64,000 nucleotides of DNA from assembly GCF_005405385.1 (NCBI RefSeq), contig NZ_BJDY01000003.1:186001-250000 (forward strand), read 5' to 3'. The notes beneath the pieces were generated by a model, which worked only from the letters and a program-made list of their open reading frames with translations, searched no databases and had not been told where the DNA came from. Below, in pieces: positions 7,206 through 19,526 of this stretch (its first letter is position 1; each line of letters begins with the position of its first letter). Both the position numbers and the translations under genes were made by a program. Origin of the DNA: Lactiplantibacillus mudanjiangensis. Its GTDB lineage: Bacteria; Bacillota; Bacilli; Lactobacillales; Lactobacillaceae.

Positions 7206-7991
7206 CTAAATCGTCGTTAAAAATCTGAGCATTGCCTGATTAAACGCATCTGCTTGTTCCGCCATCACAATATGCCCAGCTTCCGGAACCACTACTGATT
7301 GTCCTCTAACCGCCAGCTTAGCCGTTACAGCTGCAAATTCCGGATTAAAATATGGTGACTGTCCTCCAGCAATAATTAACAAAGGAACGGTTAATTGGGC
7401 CACAACATCGCGCCAATCCTGAAAAGCATGATCAATCAACAATGGTTGCGTCAACTCATTATCAAAAGGTTCTATTTTTGCAATTCGCTTAACTGCTTGA
7501 TACGTCAAATTATCAATATGCTGATAAGTCGCTGAGCCAAGTGGCTGATAAAAGAACTCCGGAAAGTCTGCCCAAGTTACATCTTTAAAGCCATACGACC
7601 AATCAGGTGTATTGAGCATCTTAGGTGACTGGTCAACATCAATTACTGCTTTTAACCCGTCATCTCCGAATAATGACACATAGGCAAACCAGATTGCAGC
7701 CCCCATCGAGTTTCCCATCACAATTGGTTGCTGTAATTGCAATGCCTGCATCAGTTCATAGACATCCATTGCCAATCGACTGATTCGCAAACCTTTATCC
7801 GTATGCATTGATAAGCCGTGGTTACGACTATCAACATTAATAACACGATATCCAGCTGCGATTAATACGCTCACTTGCGACCGCCAAATTACTTTTGCCC
7901 CACCGAATCCTGTTAAAATAACAATCGGTTGGCCTTGACCCTCATCTGTATAATCTAATACCACATGATCTGAAGTTTCAAATTCCATCAC
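7206..7991 (-). CDS. Alpha/beta-hydrolase
   Basis: Cytoplasmic alpha/beta-hydrolase of about 260 residues. The nucleophile is Ser95 in GNSMGAA, the oxyanion region is LTGFGGAK, an acid is expected near the second half, and the catalytic His is in EAGHIVMAEQ. The fold resembles enol-lactone hydrolases and small esterases. It is the last gene of the acyl-CoA operon, so it may hydrolyse an ester, lactone or thioester of the substrate before or after the CoA steps. The first codon could be GTG 7991 or ATG 7988, and AAGGAGG precedes both. Confidence 0.8.
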   Translation of the reverse strand: MMEFETSDHVVLDYTDEGQGQPIVILTGFGGAKVIWRSQVSVLIAAGYRVINVDSRNHGLSMHTDKGLRISRLAMDVYELMQALQLQQPIVMGNSMGAAIWFAYVSLFGDDGLKAVIDVDQSPKMLNTPDWSYGFKDVTWADFPEFFYQPLGSATYQHIDNLTYQAVKRIAKIEPFDNELTQPLLIDHAFQDWRDVVAQLTVPLLIIAGGQSPYFNPEFAAVTAKLAVRGQSVVVPEAGHIVMAEQADAFNQAMLRFLTTI

Positions 7992-8011
7992 TTAATTTCC
8001 TCCTTATACGC

Positions 8012-8059
8012 AGAAAAGAGCCAACTGAATTAGAAACTTCAGTAAGCTCAGTTCTTTTA
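8012..8059 (-). terminator. Hairpin between thioesterase and hydrolase genes
   Basis: Nested arms GAGC/GCTC and ACTGAA/TTCAGT, flanked by AAAA and TTTT. It may be a weak terminator that lowers expression of the hydrolase, or an mRNA-stabilising hairpin. Confidence 0.45.
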
Positions 8060-8497
8060 GACATTAAATTTAATTCGTATTTGTTCAATGAAATCACGCT
8101 GTTCAACATCCTGAACGGTAAATGGGGCAACACTAATTGGCTTTAAATCTGCGTTAACAGCCACGAAAACAAAGATTCCTGTCCCAATAACTTCCGATTT
8201 ACTCTCAAACGTTTGCCGCCAAGCTTCCACATAAAAAGTCATTGTATGATGGCCCGTTTTTAATAGCGTCACACTAAAGCTAATGTGATCACCAACCCGC
8301 GCTGGTTGCATAAAATTAAATGTCTTGATTGCCACTGTCAGAACTCGCGACTGCGTGTAGCGATTTGCAATTAGCCCAACGGTTGAATCACAATGTTTCA
8401 CTAAGACCCCACCATGCAAAATATTTAAATGATTTAGCATATCGGGTCCCACAAAAAAGTCACCAGCTTCAACTTGATAAAACGCATTCTCCGCCAT
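8057..8497 (-). CDS. Hotdog-fold acyl-CoA thioesterase
   Basis: Small protein (146 residues) of the hotdog 4HBT/YciA type. NILHGGVLVKHCDSTVG contains the family's HGG turn and a likely catalytic Asp at the start of the long helix. It should release the free acid and CoA from an acyl-CoA. It lies between the CoA-ligase and hydrolase genes of the same operon and so could regenerate CoA after the substrate has been reduced or oxidised as a thioester. Confidence 0.82.
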   Translation of the reverse strand: MAENAFYQVEAGDFFVGPDMLNHLNILHGGVLVKHCDSTVGLIANRYTQSRVLTVAIKTFNFMQPARVGDHISFSVTLLKTGHHTMTFYVEAWRQTFESKSEVIGTGIFVFVAVNADLKPISVAPFTVQDVEQRDFIEQIRIKFNV

Positions 8498-8523
8498 CTT
8501 TATCGACCTCTTTTAATTTAAAC

Positions 8524-10128
8524 TTAGCGTCCCCAGCCATTATCGCCACTGACGTGCTGAAGAACCGGTTTAACATCATTTAAGCAGCCATGTTCAACCA
8601 TTTTAATCAACAAGTGTTTTTTAATTTTTCCCGAACTAGTCATAGGAAAATCAGTGACAACTACAACTTTTTCTGGCCAAAACTTCTTAGCCATGTGGTT
8701 TTCTGCAAAAAACTTTTTTATCTGGTCTAAAGATAATGGTACATAGTCTGGTTGCATGATAATAAAGGCACCGATGATTTCTCCTAGCCGACGATTCTTT
8801 AACCCAACAACAGCAGCTTCCTTAATTCCTGGATGACGTCGCAATTCACGTTCGACAATATACGTAGAAACATTTTCGCCACCCCGAATGATCATGTCTT
8901 TACTCCGACCATCTATCTCTAATGCCGAATCATGATTCCAATGCCCCAAGTCCCCCGTCTGAAACCACCCGTCAGCATTTAACGCTTTTTGTGTTTCAAC
9001 CGTATCACGATAATAACCTTGAAAAACAACCGGACCACGCACAATAATTTGACCAATGCGATCGGTTTGTTTGATCTCACGCTGTTGCTCATCGATCAAT
9101 TTCACCTGGACACCATCAATCGGATAACCAGCCGTTGTTTCAGCTTGTTTCATTTTAAAATAAGCAGGCGAGGTACATAAGAATGGCGCACTCTCTGTTA
9201 ACCCATAAATATTATAAATCGGTAGCTGCACGGCTTTAGCCGCCATCATTAAGTCATCATCCAGTCGAGCGCCGCCAGAGATAACTCTAGTTAAAGAACT
9301 TGGTCGCTGATACCAATTTAAAACATCGTAAATAACCGTCGGCACGGTTACTAGATAAGTACAGTGGTAACGATCAATTAATCGATGTAGCCCTGCCACT
9401 GAATAATGCTGCATCAACACCATTGAACTCCCTGCCAAAATCGTTGAGACTAAGCCATGATGAAACCCAATCGCGTGATAAAATCCCGAAGGCAAAACCA
9501 AGACATCCGTTGCTGTTATGCCATATATCCGATTAAACTGTAACTCACTGTATAGTACATTTTGGTTAGACAACATCACACCCTTAGCAAAGCTTGTGGT
9601 TCCAGATGTACAAAGAATAACAACTGGTTGAACCTGGTCAGCCGAGTGGTTGGTTTGCCGTTGAGCTGACGACAATGTAATCAGCGGTACAGATGTTAGC
9701 TTAGTGTGATTGGCCATATAACCGATCTGGCTAATATTTTCAAAACTTAATGAGTTACGACCATCTGCTTGAGTCACAATCAAATTTGGTTGAAATCGTC
9801 CAATTAATGCCAATGCTTCCTCTTGATCCAGATGTGGATTCAACGGTAAGATTGTAAGCTGCCGTTTTAGGCACGCAATCATCAACTGAACTGAGGTCAG
9901 ACAAGTCGCCATTTGGATCGCCACGACATCTCCAGCAACCAATTGCTGTTGATCCAAAAAGGCTACCGCTTGATCACTTAATTGGTCAAACTCATGATAA
10001 GTTAATTGCTGGTCAGCTTGGGCTACAAAAATATGATCAGGCGTTTTTTCACAACGCTCTCGCCAAACTTCTGCAATTGTCAGTGGGAAGGCATTGGCTC
10101 CGAGTAATTCATCTGAACTAATCATCAT
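8524..10128 (-). CDS. AMP-forming acyl-CoA ligase
   Basis: ANL-superfamily enzyme of 534 residues that activates a carboxylic acid with ATP and CoA. The P-loop is VILCTSGTTSFAKGVMLS, followed by the GLTESAP motif, GWFQTGDLGHW, GRSKDMIIRGGENV and the C-terminal catalytic lysine in SSGKIKKHLL. All core motifs are intact. Long-chain, CaiC-like and aryl-acid ligases share them, so the substrate is open. It sits 12 bases behind etfA with a GGAGG site. Together with the CoA-transferase it provides two routes for loading CoA. Confidence 0.88.
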   Translation of the reverse strand: MMISSDELLGANAFPLTIAEVWRERCEKTPDHIFVAQADQQLTYHEFDQLSDQAVAFLDQQQLVAGDVVAIQMATCLTSVQLMIACLKRQLTILPLNPHLDQEEALALIGRFQPNLIVTQADGRNSLSFENISQIGYMANHTKLTSVPLITLSSAQRQTNHSADQVQPVVILCTSGTTSFAKGVMLSNQNVLYSELQFNRIYGITATDVLVLPSGFYHAIGFHHGLVSTILAGSSMVLMQHYSVAGLHRLIDRYHCTYLVTVPTVIYDVLNWYQRPSSLTRVISGGARLDDDLMMAAKAVQLPIYNIYGLTESAPFLCTSPAYFKMKQAETTAGYPIDGVQVKLIDEQQREIKQTDRIGQIIVRGPVVFQGYYRDTVETQKALNADGWFQTGDLGHWNHDSALEIDGRSKDMIIRGGENVSTYIVERELRRHPGIKEAAVVGLKNRRLGEIIGAFIIMQPDYVPLSLDQIKKFFAENHMAKKFWPEKVVVVTDFPMTSSGKIKKHLLIKMVEHGCLNDVKPVLQHVSGDNGWGR

Positions 10129-10140
10129 GCCGACCTCCTT

Positions 10141-11109
10141 TTAACTTGGAACCGGTGTTGACAGTTCACTTAATAATCGCTTAACAACAGTCTCGCCGTC
10201 ACCAATAATCCCGTAATCGGCTAACTTAAAGATTGGTGCGGTTGGATCAGTGTTAATCGCAATGATGCACTTTGACTGATCCATGCCAACCGTATGTTGT
10301 AACGCACCCGAAATGCCAACAGCAATATATAAATCTGGTGCCACGACTTTACCCGTTTGACCGACCATTGTACTTTCATCGACCCAACCGTTATTCACGG
10401 CGACCCGTGATGCACCTAAAGCGCCATGCAGTTGATCGGCCAACTTTTGTAAGAGTTCAAAGCCCGCTGGTCCTTGCATACCACGACCACCAGCCACCAC
10501 AATTTTAGCGTTTTCTAAATCATTCGCTTTAACTGGTAAATCTGCATACGTCACATCATCAGCAACGACTAATTCACCTGCTGTCTTCACCGTAATCGTT
10601 GCAGTTGTATTAGTCGTAATCCGATCATTAATTCCTGTCACATCACAAGTAATCACGGCTTTAGCAGCAGCTGTTAACACAGTTTGTTGTAACATTGTTC
10701 CAGCTTGGACTTTCTTTTGCGCTTGAAGTCCAGTTGTTGTCATCGTTAATTGATTGGCCTGCGTAATCACGTTCTCTTTCAAGGCTGCACCCAAACGTGT
10801 TGCAATACTTGTAGTTCCTTTATCATTGGCAAATAAAATTAATGAGTGTGCTTGACTCACAAAGTAGTCACTCAAGACACTCGCAGTTTGCGCTAGATTA
10901 ATTTTTGAAAATTGTGAATAAGCTAAAATATCTATTTCATTTAATCCAGTTTCACCGTACTTTTCTTCAATGCCTTGATCCGATGGCGCTACCACCACTG
11001 CATTCAAGTCTTCATTTTCAAAATTAATTTGAGCAAAGTGAATCAAATTTAAATTTTTATCTTCAAACTCAGGATCAGCTAATAATACTAAATAAATTGA
11101 TTTTTTCAT
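10141..11109 (-). CDS. etfA: Electron transfer flavoprotein alpha subunit
   Basis: EtfA (322 residues from the ATG at 11109, preceded by AAGGTGG; the upstream GTG codons lack spacing). The C-terminal FAD-binding domain is nearly canonical: [57 protein letters not shown] and ADYGIIGD. It carries electrons to or from the two acyl-CoA dehydrogenases encoded in the same operon. Respiratory ETF-quinone reductase is not encoded here, so NADH or the GlcD-type dehydrogenase may be its redox partner (inference). Confidence 0.93.
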
Positions 11110-11124
11110 GGTAAACACCACCTT

Positions 11125-11925
11125 CTATAAAATACTCTGTGCCTTTAGCGTTGTAATTAACTTGGTCACTGCCGCTTCATCATCAGCTAATTGATATACA
11201 ACCGATTTCTTTTTTTGAACTGGTAACGGTGCCAAACGACTTGTTGGGGCTTGCTTATTAAGATCATCCCAAGCAGATTGATCAATAACCGTAATACTAT
11301 CAATCGTTAGCTGTTCTAGCTCCGCACGTTTGGCCATCATCTTAGTTTTAAAACTCGGTAACCGTGGTTTATTAATCGAGTCAGTCACAGAAATCACGGC
11401 TGGTTCTTGGACTTTACCCGTAATCGTCCCCTTTTCCCATAACGTCGTATATACCAATTCATCATCAACAGTAGCCAACGCGTTGACATTATCGAAATAT
11501 GGTAGATTTAAACTATTTGCAACCAAAGCACCAACATACCCTTGTGGCATATCTAGAGCTTGACTCCCTGTTAAAATCAAATCAAATTGACCTAACTTTC
11601 TGGCAGCTTCCGCTAATACCACACCAATCGCACTATCATTATCCTTATCAGTCGCAACTAATGGGCTATCAATCGCGACCGCTTTTGTGGCACCTAAAGC
11701 TAGTCCTGCTCGTAAAGCTGGTTCAGTTGTAGTTGCTACTCCATATGAGGCTACCGTAACATCGCCATTATGATCATCAACTAACTGTAAAGCTGCTTCA
11801 ATGGCGTTCTTATCATAAGGATTCAAAATTGCTGTACTTGTTTCAGCAGTCAATTGCCCTTTTTCATCAAAAGCTGGTTTTTGTGTGGGGACAATCACCC
11901 CTTTAATTAAGACTAGAATATCCAT
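11125..11925 (-). CDS. etfB: Electron transfer flavoprotein beta subunit
   Basis: EtfB (266 residues) partner of EtfA, starting MDILVLIKGVIVPTQ, with nucleotide-binding region NPYDKNAIEAALQL and GYVGALVANSLNLPY. The ATG at 11925 is preferred over the one at 11934 because the latter abuts the AGGAG site. The usual DTGQVG-type stretch is replaced by DMPQGYVG. Whether this means AMP or a second FAD (bifurcating type) cannot be judged by eye. It lies between acyl-CoA dehydrogenase 1 and etfA. Confidence 0.92.
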   Translation of the reverse strand: MDILVLIKGVIVPTQKPAFDEKGQLTAETSTAILNPYDKNAIEAALQLVDDHNGDVTVASYGVATTTEPALRAGLALGATKAVAIDSPLVATDKDNDSAIGVVLAEAARKLGQFDLILTGSQALDMPQGYVGALVANSLNLPYFDNVNALATVDDELVYTTLWEKGTITGKVQEPAVISVTDSINKPRLPSFKTKMMAKRAELEQLTIDSITVIDQSAWDDLNKQAPTSRLAPLPVQKKKSVVYQLADDEAAVTKLITTLKAQSIL

Positions 11926-11937
11926 AACAGTCATCTC

Positions 11938-13083
11938 CTAATCGCGATATTCATGATTCAATTCATTTGCGATGGTTACGCGTTGAATTTGGTTTGTACC
12001 CTCAAAGATTTGGAAAACTTTACAATCTCGCATTAATTTTTCAACTGGATAATCTTTTGAAACCCCATAACCACCAAAGATTTGAACCGCATCAGAAGTC
12101 GCCTTTTGAACAGCATCAGTAACAAACAGCTTGGTCATCGCTCCTTCTTTACGGACTAGGCTTCCGGCATCCATCATCTTCATGGTATTGTTGACCATTA
12201 AGCGGGCAGCTTCAGTTTGAGTCGCCATGTCAGCTAACATTTCTTGCACTGCTTCAAACTTAATAATTGGTCGATTGAATTGTTGCCGTAACCTAGCGTA
12301 CTTCACGGATTCATCCAAAGCCCGTTGCATAATACCAACAGCCAAAGTTGCCACAAAAGCACGTGATAAGTTCAAGCTATTTAGGGCCACTTTTAAGCCA
12401 TGACCCTCATCACCAATTCGGTTAGCGGCTGGTACTTTTACATGATCAAAAGCAACATCCGTTGTATTCGACAAACGTAACCCCATCTTATCTTCATGCT
12501 TGCCGGCCGTAATACCGCCACGCGATTTTTCAACAATAAACGCACTTAAGCCCTTATTACCATCATCAGTGGTCCGGAAAATACCGACAAAAACGTCCGC
12601 CAAGCTCCCGTTAGTGATAAACGTCTTATCACCATTTAAGATATAATAATCACCTTCACGCGTTGCTGTCGCTTTGACGGAACCAGCATCAGTCCCGGCA
12701 TCAGGTTCGCTTAACGCAAAAGCCGCAAACTTGCCAGGGGCAATAATATCGGCAAAATGCTGAACTTGTTCATCGGTTCCGGCAATCATCACCGACCGTA
12801 AAGCCACAAAAGTTGAGACCAACGTAATCGCATAACCAGGATCATAACTGGCCAGCTTTTCAAAGATCATCGCGGTTGTTTCATAAGATAAACCCGCACC
12901 GCCAAACTTTTCGGGGATTTCCAACATGTGTAATCCCATATCAAATGCTGGCTTAAACAACTCTTCTGGACAGCTTCCTGCTTCATCGCAGGCTTTGACG
13001 ACTGATGGTGTCAAAGTTTCATCAGCAAATTCTGTAACCATTTTTAAAAAGTCTTTTTGTTCATCTGTATATTGCAGTGCCAT
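11938..13083 (-). CDS. Acyl-CoA dehydrogenase 1
   Basis: FAD enzyme of 381 residues, the standard length, catalysing alpha,beta-oxidation of an acyl-CoA or, run backwards with reduced Etf, reduction of an enoyl-CoA. LSEPDAGTDAGS and NGDKTFITNG form the FAD/substrate core. The catalytic base is Glu361 in FEGTNQIQR, in the position used by short- and medium-chain enzymes. It is directly upstream of etfB, the classic arrangement for a dehydrogenase that uses that Etf. Confidence 0.92.
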   Translation of the reverse strand: MALQYTDEQKDFLKMVTEFADETLTPSVVKACDEAGSCPEELFKPAFDMGLHMLEIPEKFGGAGLSYETTAMIFEKLASYDPGYAITLVSTFVALRSVMIAGTDEQVQHFADIIAPGKFAAFALSEPDAGTDAGSVKATATREGDYYILNGDKTFITNGSLADVFVGIFRTTDDGNKGLSAFIVEKSRGGITAGKHEDKMGLRLSNTTDVAFDHVKVPAANRIGDEGHGLKVALNSLNLSRAFVATLAVGIMQRALDESVKYARLRQQFNRPIIKFEAVQEMLADMATQTEAARLMVNNTMKMMDAGSLVRKEGAMTKLFVTDAVQKATSDAVQIFGGYGVSKDYPVEKLMRDCKVFQIFEGTNQIQRVTIANELNHEYRD

Positions 13084-13099
13084 TATGACTCACACCCTT

Positions 13100-14338
13100 C
13101 TATTTAACGGGGTCGCCAATATGTCTCGTGGTAGCGGCCGCACCGTCTGCTAATAACTGGTTAATTTTTTCATCTGAATATCCGAGTTCACTCAGAACGT
13201 TCCTAGTATCTGCACCTTGTGGCCGTGATACTTTCAACTCTGGGTTCCCCATAGATTCAAACCGAACCGGATTGGTTGGAATCATCCGTTCATTTCCAGA
13301 TGGAAACTTAATTTGCCGTATTTCATCGTTATCTAACGCTTCCGCGTCCTTGTAGATTTCTGTTGGCACATAACAAGCCTCTAATGGCAAATCATTTTCT
13401 TTGAAAATATCGACCCAATGTTGTAATGGCTGTTGCTTAAATTGGGTATCCAAGATATTGATAAATTCTTGATTCAGCTGCTCAGCATTAATATGATCAA
13501 TGTTGTTATAGCGTGGGTCATCAACTAAATCTTCGCGACCAATTAACGTCATGACCTTGTCATAATCTCGATTGAAGACTGGCACACACATGACAAACCA
13601 ACGATCATCGCTTGTCTTGAAACAATCGTTAAATGGATTAGCAACATTTAACCGACTCTTGGGATATTCATTGCCATATTGTGCCGAAACCATCGCCACA
13701 TTTTGCATGAAGATCGCGGCATGATGCAAACTGACCGTTAATTTATCGCCCTTGCCTTCACGTGCTTGCTTCAACAACGCACCACAAATACCAGCAGCTA
13801 AACACATAGAAACCTGAAAATCACCATAACCATTAGCTGGATTCATTGGACTTTGACCAGCTTCTAACGTGGTTCCTAAGACTCCACCACGAGCCATATA
13901 AGCAGTTGCATCAAACCCTGCAGCGTCCTTTTGCGGACCATGTTCACCGTACCCTAGAACTTGAGCGAAAATTAATTTGGGGAACTTTTGCTTCAATGTT
14001 TCATAATCAATACCTAAGTGTTCCAAGGACTTTGTCCGCACGTTAGTAACAAAGACATTGGCATCTTTTAACAAGTCGTAAAAAGCTTGTCGACCATCAT
14101 CTTTTCGCAAGTTCAATGTCACAAAACGCTTGTTTAAGTTTGAAATATCAAACCCTAAATTTTCATCATCTGAATAGTGCATGTTGAAAACGGCGCCTTG
14201 GGTCCGTTCAGCATCCCCTTTAGGGGGTTCAACCTTAATGACATCTGCTCCCCATTCACCTAATACTCGTGTAACCGTAGGAGCTGCCAGGAACGTTGTC
14301 ATGTCAACAATACGTACACCATCTAAAGTCTTACTCAT
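13100..14338 (-). CDS. Family III CoA-transferase (CaiB/BaiF type)
   Basis: CoA-transferase of 412 residues that moves CoA between carboxylates without ATP. VRIVDMTTFLAAPTVTRVLGEWGADVIKVEPP is the family start (split here by my reading). The catalytic aspartate is Asp143 in GFDATAYMARGG. Family members include CaiB, formyl-CoA transferase and the cinnamoyl-CoA:phenyllactate transferase FldA. Paired with dehydrogenases and Etf it would recycle CoA from the reduced product to incoming substrate. It is separated from the gene before it by an intercistronic hairpin. Confidence 0.92.
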   Translation of the reverse strand: MSKTLDGVRIVDMTTFLAAPTVTRVLGEWGADVIKVEPPKGDAERTQGAVFNMHYSDDENLGFDISNLNKRFVTLNLRKDDGRQAFYDLLKDANVFVTNVRTKSLEHLGIDYETLKQKFPKLIFAQVLGYGEHGPQKDAAGFDATAYMARGGVLGTTLEAGQSPMNPANGYGDFQVSMCLAAGICGALLKQAREGKGDKLTVSLHHAAIFMQNVAMVSAQYGNEYPKSRLNVANPFNDCFKTSDDRWFVMCVPVFNRDYDKVMTLIGREDLVDDPRYNNIDHINAEQLNQEFINILDTQFKQQPLQHWVDIFKENDLPLEACYVPTEIYKDAEALDNDEIRQIKFPSGNERMIPTNPVRFESMGNPELKVSRPQGADTRNVLSELGYSDEKINQLLADGAAATTRHIGDPVK

Positions 14339-14357
14339 GAAAACTTCCTCCTAAGTA

Positions 14358-14402
14358 AACATGCCGATAGCATGTGTTATTCACCTATACTATCGGCATG
14401 TT
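14358..14402 (-). other. Intercistronic hairpin inside the CoA operon
   Basis: Perfect 13-bp inverted repeat (AACATGCCGATAG and CTATCGGCATGTT) around a 19-base loop, between acyl-CoA dehydrogenase 2 and the CoA-transferase gene. It has no T run on either strand, so it is more likely an mRNA processing or stability element than a terminator. Confidence 0.6.
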
Positions 14403-14413
14403 ATGTGTGTTTA

Positions 14414-15643
14414 TTATTCGATAATACCGTCGTTAGCAATTAACTTACGAGCAGCGGTTAAGCGTTGAACTGAACGAGGGCCTTCTTCAAGCCACATCGC
14501 ACGGCAGTCACGATACATCCGTTCAACCGGACCATAAGGGTTATCTTCAAAGTAACCAATGCCACCAAAGATTTCGAGGCAGTAGTCAGAAACTAATTTA
14601 ACCGTATTAATACTGAACAACTTGCACATAGCTGCTTTTTCTTCAATATCTTCACCACGATCATATTGATCAGCTAAGTTATGAAGCATTGTGCGCAAAG
14701 CAAAGATCTCAGTCCCCATGTCAGCAATTTCCTGTTGAATAGCTTGACGTTTTGCTAATGGTTTACCAAAAGTTACCCGGTCTTTAGCTCGAGCGATTGC
14801 CATTTCAAGCATCCGTTGACTCATTCCTAAGTTACTTGATGCGATATGAGCCCGTGAGATTGATAATGACGCAATCGCAACGTGTAAACCGTCGCCTTCT
14901 TCACCAAGCAAATACTTCTTGTTAACCCGCATGTTGGTGAACTTCAAACCGGCATGACCAGCACCACGGCAACCCATCATGTGAGGCATTGGTACAATTT
15001 CGTATCCTGGAGTGTCAACAGGTACATAGAAGGCGCTCAAACGCTTATCACCTTCAGCATCTGGATCGGTGACAGCGATTACATATGCAGCATCCGAACA
15101 GTCGGTATGTGAAATCAACGTCTTTTCACCGTTTAAGATGTAATCATCACCATCTTTAACAGCGGTCGTATGCAAATCAGCACCAGTCCCACCAGTTTCT
15201 TCAGTTAACGCGAAACAAGTAAAGATACTTTTATCTTGTAATTTTGGCATCACATCAGCTTTTAATTCTGGTTGGCCAAATTCATCCAAAATCCGCCAGT
15301 TTAAATCAGCAGCATAGTGTAAATGCATCCGCATACCACCAGGGCCACGAGAAAACATCTCTTGAACTTGAAAGATTTGACTACAACTAAGGCCGAAGCC
15401 ACCATACTTCAATGGTAAAGCGAACCGATACAGGTCATTATCAATGGCTAATTCAAAGAATTTCTTTGGAAAACGATTTGTTACTTCAACTTCGCCTTGT
15501 AAATAATCAAATTCATTTTCTGCCAAATGCTTGATTTGCTGTAAGTACAATGCGAATTCTTCATTCGTCATCTTGGTACCTGGCTTAGTATGCACTAACT
15601 TTTTAGTTGGTTCGTAAGGTAATTTTTCTGTTGTTGCTTCCAT
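14414..15643 (-). CDS. Acyl-CoA dehydrogenase 2
   Basis: Second acyl-CoA dehydrogenase (409 residues), divergent from the first, with an N-terminal extension of about 25 residues. FALTEETGGTGADLHTTA and NGEKTLISHTDCSD match the family core. The base is probably Glu387 in LEEGPRSVQR, where the neighbour has FEGTNQIQR. The start codon shares a base with the transporter stop. The two different dehydrogenases may form one hetero-oligomer or act on different acyl groups. Confidence 0.9.
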   Translation of the reverse strand: MEATTEKLPYEPTKKLVHTKPGTKMTNEEFALYLQQIKHLAENEFDYLQGEVEVTNRFPKKFFELAIDNDLYRFALPLKYGGFGLSCSQIFQVQEMFSRGPGGMRMHLHYAADLNWRILDEFGQPELKADVMPKLQDKSIFTCFALTEETGGTGADLHTTAVKDGDDYILNGEKTLISHTDCSDAAYVIAVTDPDAEGDKRLSAFYVPVDTPGYEIVPMPHMMGCRGAGHAGLKFTNMRVNKKYLLGEEGDGLHVAIASLSISRAHIASSNLGMSQRMLEMAIARAKDRVTFGKPLAKRQAIQQEIADMGTEIFALRTMLHNLADQYDRGEDIEEKAAMCKLFSINTVKLVSDYCLEIFGGIGYFEDNPYGPVERMYRDCRAMWLEEGPRSVQRLTAARKLIANDGIIE

Positions 15644-16875
15644 TATTTTGCACGCTCCTTAGTTTGTGATGCTCCTACGCCTTTCGACATTAAGAACAAA
15701 TCAATTAATAGACCGACTACTGCTACACCAATGGCCACCATATAAGCGGGATAATATGCCGCTGTCCCCGCGCTCTTATTAATAAACAAGGCCGCAATTT
15801 GGGGACCAACTAGTGAACCAATCGCATAACCGAAAAACATTAACCCATAATTTATACCTGAATGCGTCGTTCCAAAGGTATTTCCCGTCAAAGTCGGGTA
15901 GACCACGAGCACGCCACCGAACGAAGCTCCTAGGAGAATCAAGAAGATCGTAAAGCTAACCAAGCCAGTTGAAAATCTCAAACCAGCTAAACCAATAATC
16001 GTTAACGCTAAAATACCAGCTAGCGTCTTACTTTGCCCTAGCTTATCGGTAATCGTTCCCGTAAGAATTCGACCGCCAAAATTAGCTAAAGTGTTAACGA
16101 CAACCATGTTTGCTGCAACAATCGGCGTCATGCTTAGTTGCACTTGCGCAATCATTGATAACGATCCGATCAACATGATCCCAGCCGTACAAGCAATTGA
16201 GAATAGTAACAATAATAGCCAGAATTGCCACGTTTTAAGCATTGCTTGCGGCGTATAATCATTGTCTTGTACGGCTGTTACCGTCACAGCACTTTGATCC
16301 TGCTCCGTTGGGGTATCCATCATCCAACCAACTGCCCAACAAATGATGAGGTATGCCAGGCCGATTGGAATAAACCCATTCATCCCATATTGATCACATA
16401 GAATTGCGCCAGCTTTAGCCAAAACCAATGGTCCTAATGAGGCGGCGGCTAATAAGAATCCAGAAATTGTCCCCCGTTTTTCAGGGAACCATTTCAAAGC
16501 TGTTAGTAAGGCAGGGTTATACATAACCCCATTCCCAGCACCAGCCATTAGCCCAACAGTGAGATATAGGAAAAATAAATTATGCACGAAAGCGGTCAAC
16601 AACCAGCCCAGCCCGAAGATTAATCCACCAAAATACATTAACTTCTTAGCACCAAATTTATCCATAATATGTCCGGAGGCAACTCCGAAGCACGCCATGA
16701 AAAATTCATATAAGGTTAACGTCAACGCCACTTGTGACTCAGTGCCACCGGTGGCTTTTTGTAACGGAACTGAAAATACCGAAAACGCTGAAGATGCTGC
16801 ACAACAAAAGATAATTAGGAACGCGGCGGTAAACACATGCGAGCGTCGAACTACTTTTGCATTGGTTGTTTCCAT
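15643..16875 (-). CDS. MFS transporter, OFA (oxalate/formate antiporter) type
   Basis: Twelve-helix membrane carrier of 410 residues. GHIMDKFGAKKLMYFGG is the MFS loop 2-3 motif, and AGNGVMYNPALLTALKWFPEKRG is typical of the OFA subfamily that exchanges carboxylates. The ATG at 16875 is chosen because AAGGAGG lies 7 bases before it; the frame is open further upstream. As first gene of the operon it probably imports the acid substrate or exchanges it for the product. Confidence 0.9.
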   Translation of the reverse strand: METTNAKVVRRSHVFTAAFLIIFCCAASSAFSVFSVPLQKATGGTESQVALTLTLYEFFMACFGVASGHIMDKFGAKKLMYFGGLIFGLGWLLTAFVHNLFFLYLTVGLMAGAGNGVMYNPALLTALKWFPEKRGTISGFLLAAASLGPLVLAKAGAILCDQYGMNGFIPIGLAYLIICWAVGWMMDTPTEQDQSAVTVTAVQDNDYTPQAMLKTWQFWLLLLLFSIACTAGIMLIGSLSMIAQVQLSMTPIVAANMVVVNTLANFGGRILTGTITDKLGQSKTLAGILALTIIGLAGLRFSTGLVSFTIFLILLGASFGGVLVVYPTLTGNTFGTTHSGINYGLMFFGYAIGSLVGPQIAALFINKSAGTAAYYPAYMVAIGVAVVGLLIDLFLMSKGVGASQTKERAK

Positions 16876-17226
16876 CACGAACCTCCTTCCTTTCGGGGTG
16901 ATTTGGTATCGCTTTCTTACAAGTTCTAGTGTAGGTTGCCAACTCATAAAATAAAAATTCTTAAAATAGTGAAATTCATAACTTTCGTGAATAGTGTTGA
17001 AATCTAGGCATTTAAAACAAATGTTGACCTATTCAATCATCTACATTTTTTGTGATTTTAATATCAATATGACCTTATTTGAACGTTATTTATGAAGGGC
17101 TTTTGCTTGACATAGCGTGAAACTATATATTTATAGATAAAGCCTATTTTTACTTGGTAGCGGTTTCATCTATGATATAGATGATAATTGTCAACCAAAT
17201 TATGACATTATTAGGAGGGGTTTTTG
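16876..17226. promoter_or_regulatory. Divergent promoter region of the CoA locus and LysR gene
   Basis: AT-rich 351-base gap between the transporter operon and the LysR gene. A TTGACA at 17107-17112 is a likely -35 for the LysR gene. A second palindromic stretch, CTATATATTTATAG, lies at about 17132-17145. No cre match was seen. No coding sequence was found. Confidence 0.55.
17167..17183. promoter_or_regulatory. Candidate LysR-type binding box
   Basis: CATCTATGATATAGATG has perfect 7-bp arms around GAT and the T-N11-A layout of LysR operators. It is 44 bases upstream of the LysR start codon, in the divergent promoter region. Confidence 0.55.
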
Positions 17227-18126
17227 TTGAACTTAAATCAACTCTATTATTTTCGAACCTTAGCAGAATACCAACATTACACTAAAGCGGCGGCAAAGCT
17301 TTACATTAGTCAGCCTAGTTTAAGTAATGCAATGAAATCTTTAGAGAAAGAATTAGGATGCGTTTTATTTAAAAAATCGGGTCGTAATGTCCAGTTAACC
17401 GAATACGGACGCATGTTTTATAACACTACATGCTCAACCCTTAACATATTAGAAGATGGCAAACGTGAACTTCAGCAAAAGATTAAAAGCGATGCTGGCA
17501 TTATCAATGTCGCTTGTATTCCAACCTCTATCGGTACACGCTTGCCCAAATTTATTAAACACTTTCAAACCGATAATACGAGCTCGCCTTACTTTATTTT
17601 GCACGATGAGTTTTCTATTCCAATTTTAGAAGGCTTAACTAATGGAAATTATGACGTCGGCATTTGTTCTCGAGATGCAACATATAAAGATTTATCTTTT
17701 ATCCCGTTCTTCTCAGAACCAATCACCGTCGTCGTTCGACCAGACCATCCTCTAGCTAATGAAGAACGAATTGATCCAAATTCATTACGTCCGTATGACT
17801 TAATGACCTATAACGAACAGACACCAATTGGGCAAGTTATCCGTAACGCCCTCAATGCTCGCTGCCCCAACCTTAATATTGCAGAATCATTGGATAGTGA
17901 ACTAACTATTGCCGGTCAAATTATTGAAAATAATTCCGTTGGTATTGTAGCTAACACGATTCTTTTAGATTCATTTAACTTGAAGAAGATCCCTCTGGAT
18001 GTTCCAAGTGATACACGCGTTGTTTATATCGTCTATAACCATACGCGGCAACTTTCACCGGTAGTCCAACATTTTATTGATTATCTTAAAGAGACTAAAG
18101 CCGAAGCAACTGGAAAGAAGGATTAG
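17227..18126 (+). CDS. LysR-family regulator of the CoA locus
   Basis: LTTR of about 299 residues. The N-terminal helix-turn-helix (NLNQLYYFRTLAEYQHYTKAA, then LYISQPSLSNAMKSLEKELG) is followed by a periplasmic-binding-like effector domain. It starts at TTG: two TTG codons stand in tandem at 17224 and 17227, and AGGAGG is 8 bases before the second, giving the usual MNLNQLYYF opening. Divergent from the transporter operon and two bases before the FAD dehydrogenase gene, so it probably controls both in response to the carboxylic acid. Confidence 0.88.
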   Translation: MNLNQLYYFRTLAEYQHYTKAAAKLYISQPSLSNAMKSLEKELGCVLFKKSGRNVQLTEYGRMFYNTTCSTLNILEDGKRELQQKIKSDAGIINVACIPTSIGTRLPKFIKHFQTDNTSSPYFILHDEFSIPILEGLTNGNYDVGICSRDATYKDLSFIPFFSEPITVVVRPDHPLANEERIDPNSLRPYDLMTYNEQTPIGQVIRNALNARCPNLNIAESLDSELTIAGQIIENNSVGIVANTILLDSFNLKKIPLDVPSDTRVVYIVYNHTRQLSPVVQHFIDYLKETKAEATGKKD

Positions 18127-18128
18127 AA

Positions 18129-19526
18129 ATGACAACAATAACAACTACCTATCAACCCATATATCAACAATTGGTCAGCCATTTAGACCCATCATTGGTA
18201 CTGATTGGCAAACAGATTAACACTGAACTCGGTCACGATGAACTGAATACTTTTCAACATTTACCAGACTTAGTCGTCAAACCCCAGTCTACCGAACAAG
18301 TTGCCTTAGTGATGCGACTCGCCACCCAATACCAAGTACCAGTCACAGCCCGCGGTGCTGGCACTGGTCTAGTTGGGGGTTGTGTTCCCATTGAAGGCGG
18401 TTTGTTGATCGATCTAACTTCCATGAATCAGATTATTGAGTTAGACACAGAAAATTTAACGTTAACTACCCAAGCTGGGGCACTATTAAAAGATGTCGCC
18501 GCTTACGCAACTAATCAAGGTTACTTATATGCTCCCGATCCTGGTGAAAAAGCCGCAACTATTGGTGGTAACATTGCCACAAATGCTGGTGGCATGCGTG
18601 CCGTCAAGTATGGCACCACTCGCGACTCTGTTCGTGCATTGACCGTTGTCACTGCGCAAGGTAAGATTCTAGAACTTGGTAGCAAAGTGGTTAAAAATAG
18701 TTCAGGTTTAGATTTAAAAGATTTGTTTATTGGTTCTGAAGGGGTTCTAGGGATCATTACTGAAGCAACTTTACAGATTCGATCGTTACCTAAAGCTAGT
18801 GCTAGCTTACTGATTCCCTTCGACAATTTCGAAACTGCTTTGTCTGCAGTTCCTAAAATCTTACGGTCTGGCACACAACCAACGGCAGTTGAATTCTTTG
18901 AAGCCGACACCATTAAATGTTGGGAAGCATTTGCCAATCAATCATTTCCACAAGCTGGTGCAGCGGTTTATCTACTGCTGACAGTCGATGGTCAACAATC
19001 TGACGTGGTCACCACCGATTACGAAAAAATTGCTGAACTCTGCCTAGATCAAGGTGCAATTGATGTCTATGTTTTAGATACTGATGTTTTAAAAAAACAA
19101 ATTTGGTCGGCACGTGATGCTTTCTTAGAAGCAATCAAGGCATCGACTACAACCATGGATGAAGCCGATGCTGTAGTGCCTCGTAGTGCCACCACTGAGT
19201 TTGTCGCCTTTACTCATCAACTTGCTGCCGAAGAACATGTTCGTATTCCTAGTTTTGGCCATGTTGGTGATGGTAATCTTCATCTCTATATTTGCCAAGA
19301 TGATTACGACGATGACACATGGAAATTCAAACTAACCACAATTTTCAAGGCGTTATATGATAAGGCCATCGCGCTAAATGGCAAAATTTCTGGTGAACAT
19401 GGCATTGGTTATGCTAAGCGTCCTTATTTACAGGCCGCCAGTTCACCGGCTGAACTAGCAATTATGCAGGCAATTAAAGCCGCATTAGATCCTGATAGCC
19501 TATTAAATCCCGATAAAATCTTTTAA
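18129..19526 (+). CDS. FAD-linked 2-hydroxyacid dehydrogenase (GlcD/D-lactate dehydrogenase type)
   Basis: Flavoprotein of 465 residues of the GlcD/Dld2 group. The PCMH FAD domain has ARGAGTGLVGGCVPIEGG and PGEKAATIGGNIATNAGG, and the C-terminal half has FGHVGDGNLHLYI and SGEHGIGYAKRPYL. It oxidises a D-2-hydroxyacid such as D-lactate to the oxoacid. Relatives in anaerobes (LctD of Acetobacterium) work in a complex with EtfAB, and an etfAB pair is in this locus. Co-transcribed with the LysR gene. Confidence 0.9.
   Translation: MTTITTTYQPIYQQLVSHLDPSLVLIGKQINTELGHDELNTFQHLPDLVVKPQSTEQVALVMRLATQYQVPVTARGAGTGLVGGCVPIEGGLLIDLTSMNQIIELDTENLTLTTQAGALLKDVAAYATNQGYLYAPDPGEKAATIGGNIATNAGGMRAVKYGTTRDSVRALTVVTAQGKILELGSKVVKNSSGLDLKDLFIGSEGVLGIITEATLQIRSLPKASASLLIPFDNFETALSAVPKILRSGTQPTAVEFFEADTIKCWEAFANQSFPQAGAAVYLLLTVDGQQSDVVTTDYEKIAELCLDQGAIDVYVLDTDVLKKQIWSARDAFLEAIKASTTTMDEADAVVPRSATTEFVAFTHQLAAEEHVRIPSFGHVGDGNLHLYICQDDYDDDTWKFKLTTIFKALYDKAIALNGKISGEHGIGYAKRPYLQAASSPAELAIMQAIKAALDPDSLLNPDKIF

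Follow-up and report, generated by a model that had tools for sequence, protein, structure and literature searches.

In the cai system of crotonobetaine reduction and the car system of caffeate reduction, a ligase primes the pathway with a first acyl-coenzyme A (acyl-CoA) and CoA is thereafter exchanged between product and new substrate. According to passages of PMC12630350, the lct clusters of Fusobacterium and Lachnospiraceae (Ldh-EtfAB-Bcd) combine a flavin adenine dinucleotide (FAD)-dependent lactate dehydrogenase, a canonical electron-transferring flavoprotein (Etf) and a Bcd-type enzyme, and thereby couple lactate oxidation to enoyl-CoA reduction. Here we describe a locus of Lactiplantibacillus mudanjiangensis, at positions 7206 to 19526 of a 64,000-nucleotide stretch of DNA (the window; G000:C3:186001-250000 in a host genome of 3.29 Mb), that shares parts with all three systems. 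Our results suggest that its products use lactate to drive the reduction of a hydroaromatic acid from plants, either shikimate or a near relative derived from quinate, a reading to which we give a probability of roughly 0.58.

All eleven open reading frames (ORFs) of the locus are present and open. They and a candidate regulatory site are as follows (ACAD, acyl-CoA dehydrogenase).

15643..16947, minus strand: MFS transporter, OFA/L-lactate SfMCT type (Pfam MFS_1; SfMCT 302 bits, cut-off 320)
14414..15643, minus strand: ACAD2, specialised acyl-CoA dehydrogenase-fold enzyme (Pfam)
13100..14338, minus strand: family III CoA-transferase (PF02515, 285.5 bits)
11938..13083, minus strand: ACAD1, butyryl/acryloyl-CoA dehydrogenase-like reductase (Pfam; AcrC model 338 bits; PDB 5lnx 299 bits)
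11125..11934, minus strand: EtfB, predicted to be of the canonical, non-bifurcating type (Met129 takes the place of the bifurcation glycine)
10141..11121, minus strand: EtfA, 326 aa (Pfam)
8524..10128, minus strand: AMP-forming acyl-CoA ligase, predicted priming step (PF00501 and PF13193)
8057..8497, minus strand: hotdog thioesterase, predicted product release or CoA recycling (PF03061)
7206..7991, minus strand: alpha/beta hydrolase, accessory (Pfam; best NCBIfam model PcaD, 80 bits, cut-off 256)
17224..18126, plus strand: LysR-type regulator (Pfam; effector domain nearest QuiR, Lmo0488, among solved structures)
18129..19526, plus strand: LctD-like FAD lactate dehydrogenase, predicted electron donor to Etf (7qh2_C, 524 bits)
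17123..17136, no strand: candidate LysR binding site CTAT-N6-ATAG in the divergent promoter

The minus-strand genes are separated by -1, 75, 16, 3, 3, 12, 26 and 65 bases, and the LysR and GlcD-type genes by 2 bases, so that the arrangement is naturally read as a single operon accompanied by a divergent LysR-GlcD pair. An earlier note, made from the letters of the DNA alone, had proposed these gene families and this arrangement, and the ORFs, their spacing and the Pfam and NCBIfam scans confirm both. Each scan covered ten of the eleven proteins (Pfam all except GlcD, NCBIfam all except LysR). No protein reached its NCBIfam cut-off among the matches listed; the ligase reached none among the 25 listed of 104 matching models, and the transporter, checked as a lactate permease, fell slightly below the SfMCT cut-off. 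Promoter and terminator scans gave nothing informative. The earlier note had also remarked on the absence of a hydratase, dehydratase or thiolase, and among the ten Pfam-scanned proteins none of these families was matched. Ordinary beta-oxidation was rejected on the absence from the operon, to which the search was confined, of enoyl-CoA hydratase, hydroxyacyl-CoA dehydrogenase and thiolase. Membership of the phenyllactate Fld/AcdA system was rejected as well, no phenyllactyl-CoA dehydratase being found among the ten scanned proteins, to which that search was confined.

Relatives were collected from genome_contigs (one genome per species, 84,980 species) with two CoA-transferase peptide patterns, both derived from an alignment of seven CoA-transferases. 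A total of 170 stretches matched. A relative is encoded in 84 of them, of which the 80 best were retained; these represent 77 distinct loci that all contain a CoA-transferase by selection. Many of the genomes are drafts or metagenome-assembled genomes, and genes were called simply as longest ORFs, an approach that breaks down where GC content is high; ACADs were counted by tblastn instead. The loci span lactobacilli, Bifidobacterium asteroides, gut clostridia, Eggerthellaceae, Halanaerobium and others. The order ACAD2, CoA-transferase, ACAD1, EtfB, EtfA, ligase recurs in Lactobacillus, Agrilactobacillus and Loigolactobacillus rennini, and also in B. asteroides, Halanaerobium, Lacrimispora, Hungatella and Enterocloster; conservation of the gene set is well above chance. 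An ACAD2 at least 55% identical across most of the protein is present in 70 of the 77 loci and an ACAD1 at least 50% identical in 56; several Eggerthellaceae lack ACAD1 but retain ACAD2, the CoA-transferase and the ligase. The core of the cluster thus seems to consist of ACAD2 and the CoA-transferase. The thioesterase was matched by tblastn in 13 loci and the alpha/beta hydrolase in 3. In L. rennini (L084) ACAD2 is present as two adjacent ORF pieces, possibly owing to a frameshift or an assembly error.

The cluster is patchy among the Lactobacillaceae. The earlier note had called for a survey of carriers, and this yields 10 of 397 Lactobacillaceae genomes: the CoA-transferase was matched at E<=1e-60 in 11 of the 397, in 10 at 66% identity or more, and G028 (32% identity) was excluded. 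ACAD2 was matched at E<=1e-120 in two of 395 sampled Lactobacillales genomes, the host genome among them. The ACAD2 of B. asteroides, an actinomycete, is 88% identical to that of the window, which indicates, as judged from identity, horizontal transfer of the cluster. Compared with Lactiplantibacillus songbeiensis and L. dongliensis (L020, L021), the transporter, ACAD2, CoA-transferase and ACAD1 are 94 to 97% identical, EtfB, EtfA, ligase, thioesterase, hydrolase and LctD 70 to 76%, and LysR 86%. The identity thus breaks sharply between ACAD1 and EtfB, a pattern that exchange or faster evolution of the Etf-ligase half would produce.

A conserved Cys-rich protein, absent from the window operon, directly follows the ligase (L045:15905-16459, with homologues in 46 of the 77 loci). 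Most of nine aligned sequences carry the motif CX4CX2CX3C, no Pfam or NCBIfam model matched, and the fold predicted by AlphaFold (pLDDT 74.5) is similar to that of superoxide reductase/desulfoferrodoxin (Foldseek match 1y07, E 6e-6).

The electron donor is suggested by two proteins, the GlcD-type dehydrogenase and EtfB. The best solved match of the former is LctD of the Acetobacterium woodii lactate dehydrogenase-Etf complex (7qh2_C), at 524 bits, and the next reaches 220 bits. LctD occurs at high identity in 8 of the 77 loci, and in Agrilactobacillus (L025, L026) and L. rennini (L084) its gene lies on the operon strand behind the ligase region. According to passages of PMC12630350, position 123 (A. 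fermentans numbering) is invariably Gly in bifurcating EtfB and a bulkier residue in canonical EtfB, and some lct clusters carry a Gly EtfB. The window EtfB has Met129 at this position instead of Gly, and a bifurcating Etf was rejected for the window on that ground. We compared 52 EtfB sequences (those of the window and the Lactiplantibacillus genome G333, and a single one per locus for 50 of the 77 loci). Gly was present in all 33 syntenic or neighbouring sequences from clostridia and Halanaerobium, one of which (L091) adjoins a distant, 39% identical CoA-transferase, and absent from all nine loci with LctD, window included (D in six, M in two, T in one). Eight Lactobacillus loci, G333 and an unlinked EtfB in L079 make up the remaining non-Gly sequences. 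Judging from these residues, a canonical rather than a bifurcating Etf appears to operate in lactic acid bacteria and Bifidobacterium, often together with LctD.

Textbook potentials make electron flow from lactate to enoyl-CoA downhill without bifurcation. Since EtfB lacks the bifurcation Gly, the likeliest route would run from lactate through LctD and canonical Etf to enoyl-CoA, and by homology the electron donor is probably lactate. The divergent GlcD-type gene would then belong to the system; its presence and position stand as the earlier note had them, and its identity is refined to that of an LctD relative. The earlier note also allowed the opposite direction, in which a saturated ring or chain acyl-CoA would be dehydrogenated and its electrons passed to Etf. 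ACAD reactions are reversible, which favors this option, but the operon contains no hydratase or thiolase. Moreover, an LctD relative of Fusobacterium nucleatum passes electrons from D-lactate to Etf and Bcd in vitro, according to passages of PMC12630350, and by analogy this Ldh-Etf-Bcd system is a working precedent for donation. We regard an oxidative role as very unlikely.

As for the substrate of the proposed lactate-driven reduction, the relatives point to quinate and shikimate metabolism. This idea was framed after the sizes of neighboring ORFs and a GntP permease had been viewed, and the neighbor test was accordingly not blind. A shikimate dehydrogenase (AroE) and a type I 3-dehydroquinase (AroD) adjoin the cluster in L. 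huangpiensis (L029), as does a shikimate dehydrogenase in Agrilactobacillus (L025). Three of ten neighbor entries tested were thus AroE or AroD (L029 twice, L025 once); one entry of 33 aa was uninformative, and six were other proteins or unmatched (CitG, NMO, choloylglycine-hydrolase-like, AstE/AspA-like, a PRK-type kinase and one without a match). Searching the fetched stretches, which reach up to about 10 kb on each side, by phmmer with two AroE queries, we found AroE in 19 of the 77 loci, compared with 0.776 expected from random placement of the 115 PF08501 genes that exceed the cut-off in the 77 genomes. The linkage recurs in about eight lineages by our own grouping, and 10 of the 19 loci come from genomes that, as assembled, gave no AroE match other than the linked one. 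Type I AroD is present in 10 loci, and a GntP-type permease in 29 loci of clostridial relatives. In the clostridial loci L064 and L066 the cluster is rearranged: EtfB, EtfA and two ACAD1-like genes come after AroE and precede ACAD2 and CoA-transferase.

In the Lactiplantibacillus genome G333, a quinate block (QuiR-type LysR, AroE, MFS, AroD, ApbE and a 763-aa flavin reductase) lies five N-acetylmuramic acid (MurNAc)/phosphotransferase system (PTS)-type genes away from the operon. A comparable block, lacking MFS, lies about 130 kb from the operon in the window genome (L103), which also has a second block with two AroE (L104). Neither contains a homologue of the CoA or Etf proteins of the operon, only of its LysR. 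Quinate-type AroE (E<=1e-70) is encoded in all 10 cluster-bearing Lactobacillaceae genomes and in 117 of the 387 others (Fisher 8.7e-6, a value that ignores kinship); outside the genus the figures are 4 of 4 and 103 of 372.

Two further features of these blocks were observed. In L103, AroE/AroD are accompanied by ApbE and by an enoate-reductase-like protein of 771 aa with FMN_bind/FAD_binding_2/FMN_red domains (L103:10061-12376; G000:C3, about 338 kb), which might reduce an acid derived from quinate independently of CoA. The block at L104:5442-11365 (G000:C3, about 482 kb) looks hydroaromatic and comprises LysR, a TIM-barrel protein, an SDR, two AroE paralogues and an MFS carrier.

The regulator points in the same direction. 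Its effector domain has Lmo0488/QuiR as best solved match (1.9e-11; next 2.3e-7), and QuiR is a sensor of shikimate. The sequence CTAT-N6-ATAG is present in five of six Lactiplantibacillus divergent promoters (window and L020 to L023, not G333) and in none of 15 others. It occurs twice in the whole window against 0.82 expected, and as the motif was picked after the promoter alignment had been viewed, this evidence is weak. Because of the AroE/AroD context, the QuiR-like effector domain and the G333 quinate block, we prefer a shikimate- or quinate-derived hydroaromatic substrate, on grounds of gene context and homology. The cinnamate-like substrate suggested by the earlier note is not supported, as the 19 loci with AroE, the 10 with AroD, the effector domain and the G333 block point elsewhere.

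Several observations weigh against a lactate-driven pathway for such an acid. No AroE lies in the fetched stretch of 58 of the 77 loci, nor in the window, the nearest AroE/AroD pair of the genome being about 130 kb away, and B. asteroides has the operon and only one weak AroE (58 bits), not beside the cluster. Within the genus, 20 of 21 genomes have quinate-type AroE with or without the cluster, so the association is uninformative there. The QuiR match of the operon LysR is weak compared with that of the quinate regulator of the same genome (1.2e-35). With regard to the donor, the eight Lactobacillus loci with non-Gly EtfB have no adjacent LctD (six of these genomes encode a 40 to 42% identical LctD-like protein elsewhere, two no convincing one), and G333 combines the operon and a non-Gly EtfB with no close LctD (best 33%). 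In addition, the cluster may have a caffeate-type role in chlorogenate use.

The loci without AroE would also agree with another short enoate (acrylate-, crotonate- or crotonobetaine-like) or another plant acid as substrate, the AroE linkage then being coincidental or an effect of plant lifestyle. The AcrC and cyclohexane-carbonyl-CoA dehydrogenase models are indeed the two best NCBIfam models for both ACADs among the matches listed. However, the AroE linkage recurs in about eight lineages, and the bit scores stay below every Acr and Cai cut-off: for AcrC, 338 (ACAD1) and 232 (ACAD2) of 640; for EtfA against AcrA, 124 of 600; for EtfB against AcrB, 82 of 475; and for CaiA, CaiB and CaiC, 197 of 540, 109 of 413 and 169 of 651. 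Membership of the acrylate and carnitine systems was rejected on these scores. The cluster transporters identified are of the MFS and GntP types, with no betaine carrier among ten neighbor proteins checked, some membrane-like neighbors having no match. We consider this alternative rather unlikely.

By similarity ACAD1 is an ordinary Bcd/CarC-like enzyme (5lnx 299 bits, 4l1f 286, CarC 284), and ACAD2 is more distant from CarC (157 bits; 5ol2 196). In 71 ACAD2 sequences, the motif L-E386-E387-G and residues R105, H107, H109, W116 and R117 are conserved at 97% or more. The residue before the catalytic Glu is Glu386 in ACAD2, compared with Tyr (four) or Gly (one) in five aligned solved relatives, and the helix bearing R105, H107 and H109 aligns with what we take to be the acyl-pocket helix of medium-chain acyl-CoA dehydrogenase structures. 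R105, H107, H109 and Glu386 would thus fit a polar substrate. A separate ACAD-like gene in the host genome (G000:C3:418627-419727, in a 546-aa open frame) is matched by genes of about the same length in several further Lactiplantibacillus genomes.

Reduction of caffeate, coumarate or ferulate, as in the caffeate respiration of Acetobacterium, with AroE and AroD handling the quinate half of chlorogenate, would account for the matching activities (CoA-transferase, ligase, ACAD and Etf), for the CarC score of ACAD1 and for the alpha/beta hydrolase, which could be an ester hydrolase. Yet ACAD1 is no nearer to CarC than to 5lnx or 4l1f and ACAD2 is farther from it than from 5ol2; the 326-aa EtfA aligns with the 396-aa CarE chain over 202-321 only; EtfB lacks the bifurcation Gly; the hydrolase is confined to its 3 loci; and the clostridial GntP permease would suit polyhydroxy acids better. 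Hydroxycinnamate reduction is, in our judgment, unlikely.

In the pathway that we infer, from substrate, product and direction to the division of labor between the ACADs and the ligand of the regulator, the transporter, as importer or exchanger, would bring in the plant acid and the ligase would form the first acyl-CoA. The CoA-transferase would then shift CoA from product to new substrate, so that ATP is spent for priming alone. ACAD2, with its charged residues and its extra glutamate beside the catalytic one, may handle a hydroxylated ring thioester, and ACAD1 would carry out the Etf-linked reduction of the C=C bond. Electrons would pass from lactate through LctD to canonical EtfAB, with formation of pyruvate. 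The thioesterase and hydrolase may release or trim products, and the QuiR/AroE/AroD-type genes elsewhere in the genome may supply shikimate from quinate in trans. On balance, lactate would be oxidized to pyruvate and the plant acid would serve as electron sink. Import, CoA loading, Etf-linked reduction and CoA transfer had been proposed in the same form in the earlier note; the anatomy (ligase, CoA-transferase, ACADs and Etf) fits that scheme and supports a sink, the donor is corrected to lactate via LctD, and substrate and direction are put forward conditionally. The locus probably serves the lactate-driven reduction of a plant ring acid such as shikimate after its attachment to CoA.

A bolder and less probable idea is that of an undescribed, widely transferred pathway in which shikimate-type acids would be converted to CoA thioesters and lose a ring double bond, with exchangeable electron modules. 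A hydroxyl group would possibly be removed too, by ACAD2 as a dehydrating ACAD-fold enzyme. Equally speculative is the assignment of a bifurcating NADH/ferredoxin Etf to clostridia and Halanaerobium and of lactate, LctD and canonical Etf to lactic acid bacteria and Bifidobacterium. If true, this would be a natural swap of electron donor with the substrate enzymes unchanged.

Compared with known CoA-dependent enoate reduction, the new elements would be the substrate class and the electron donor. Whiting, Carr and Coggins reportedly observed decades ago that cider lactobacilli reduce quinate and shikimate with lactate as hydrogen donor, and we know of no genes for a CoA-dependent route of quinate or shikimate reduction. 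The cluster provides candidate genes that could explain this old plant-acid fermentation and make the observation testable. The same possible chemistry would link fermented plants, bee guts, gut clostridia and Eggerthellaceae. In bee guts pollen quinate disappears and is consumed by several members, in vitro too, in passages of PMC5726620 that name no genes. In passages of PMC10054779 and PMC9600256 quinate figures as a precursor of aromatic amino acids and not as a sink for electrons. By title or abstract start, no description of the cluster was found in the open PMC literature among the matches listed.

The locus differs from each described system in a distinct way. It is like the caffeate CarA-E set of A. 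woodii (complex 6fah) in its ligase, CoA-transferase, ACAD and Etf, but the Car Etf has the bifurcation Gly and a longer EtfA, neither ACAD here is specifically CarC-like, and LctD is added. With the cai/fix genes of Escherichia coli it shares a family III CoA-transferase, ligase, ACAD and Etf, that is, the logic of CaiA/CaiB/CaiC/FixAB, although no Cai model reaches its cut-off with operon proteins. Likewise, AcrC of Clostridium propionicum AcrCAB gives the best NCBIfam model for both ACADs and Etf homologues are common to both, whereas the operon proteins score far under the AcrCAB cut-offs. The qui loci (QuiR, AroE, AroD; Listeria QuiR 5ted) are linked to the cluster in relatives and lie elsewhere in the window genome, where their blocks share only a LysR homologue with the operon. 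The Streptomyces chc/ans route, which leads from shikimate to cyclohexanecarboxyl-CoA via CoA esters and ACAD-type enzymes, is alike by description only, and that route is biosynthetic. The lct clusters resemble the locus in having an LctD-type dehydrogenase near Etf and, here, an EtfB without the Gly. To this lct-type module the operon adds enzymes for CoA activation, a carrier for carboxylates and a divergent second ACAD, which suggests that its substrate is probably imported.

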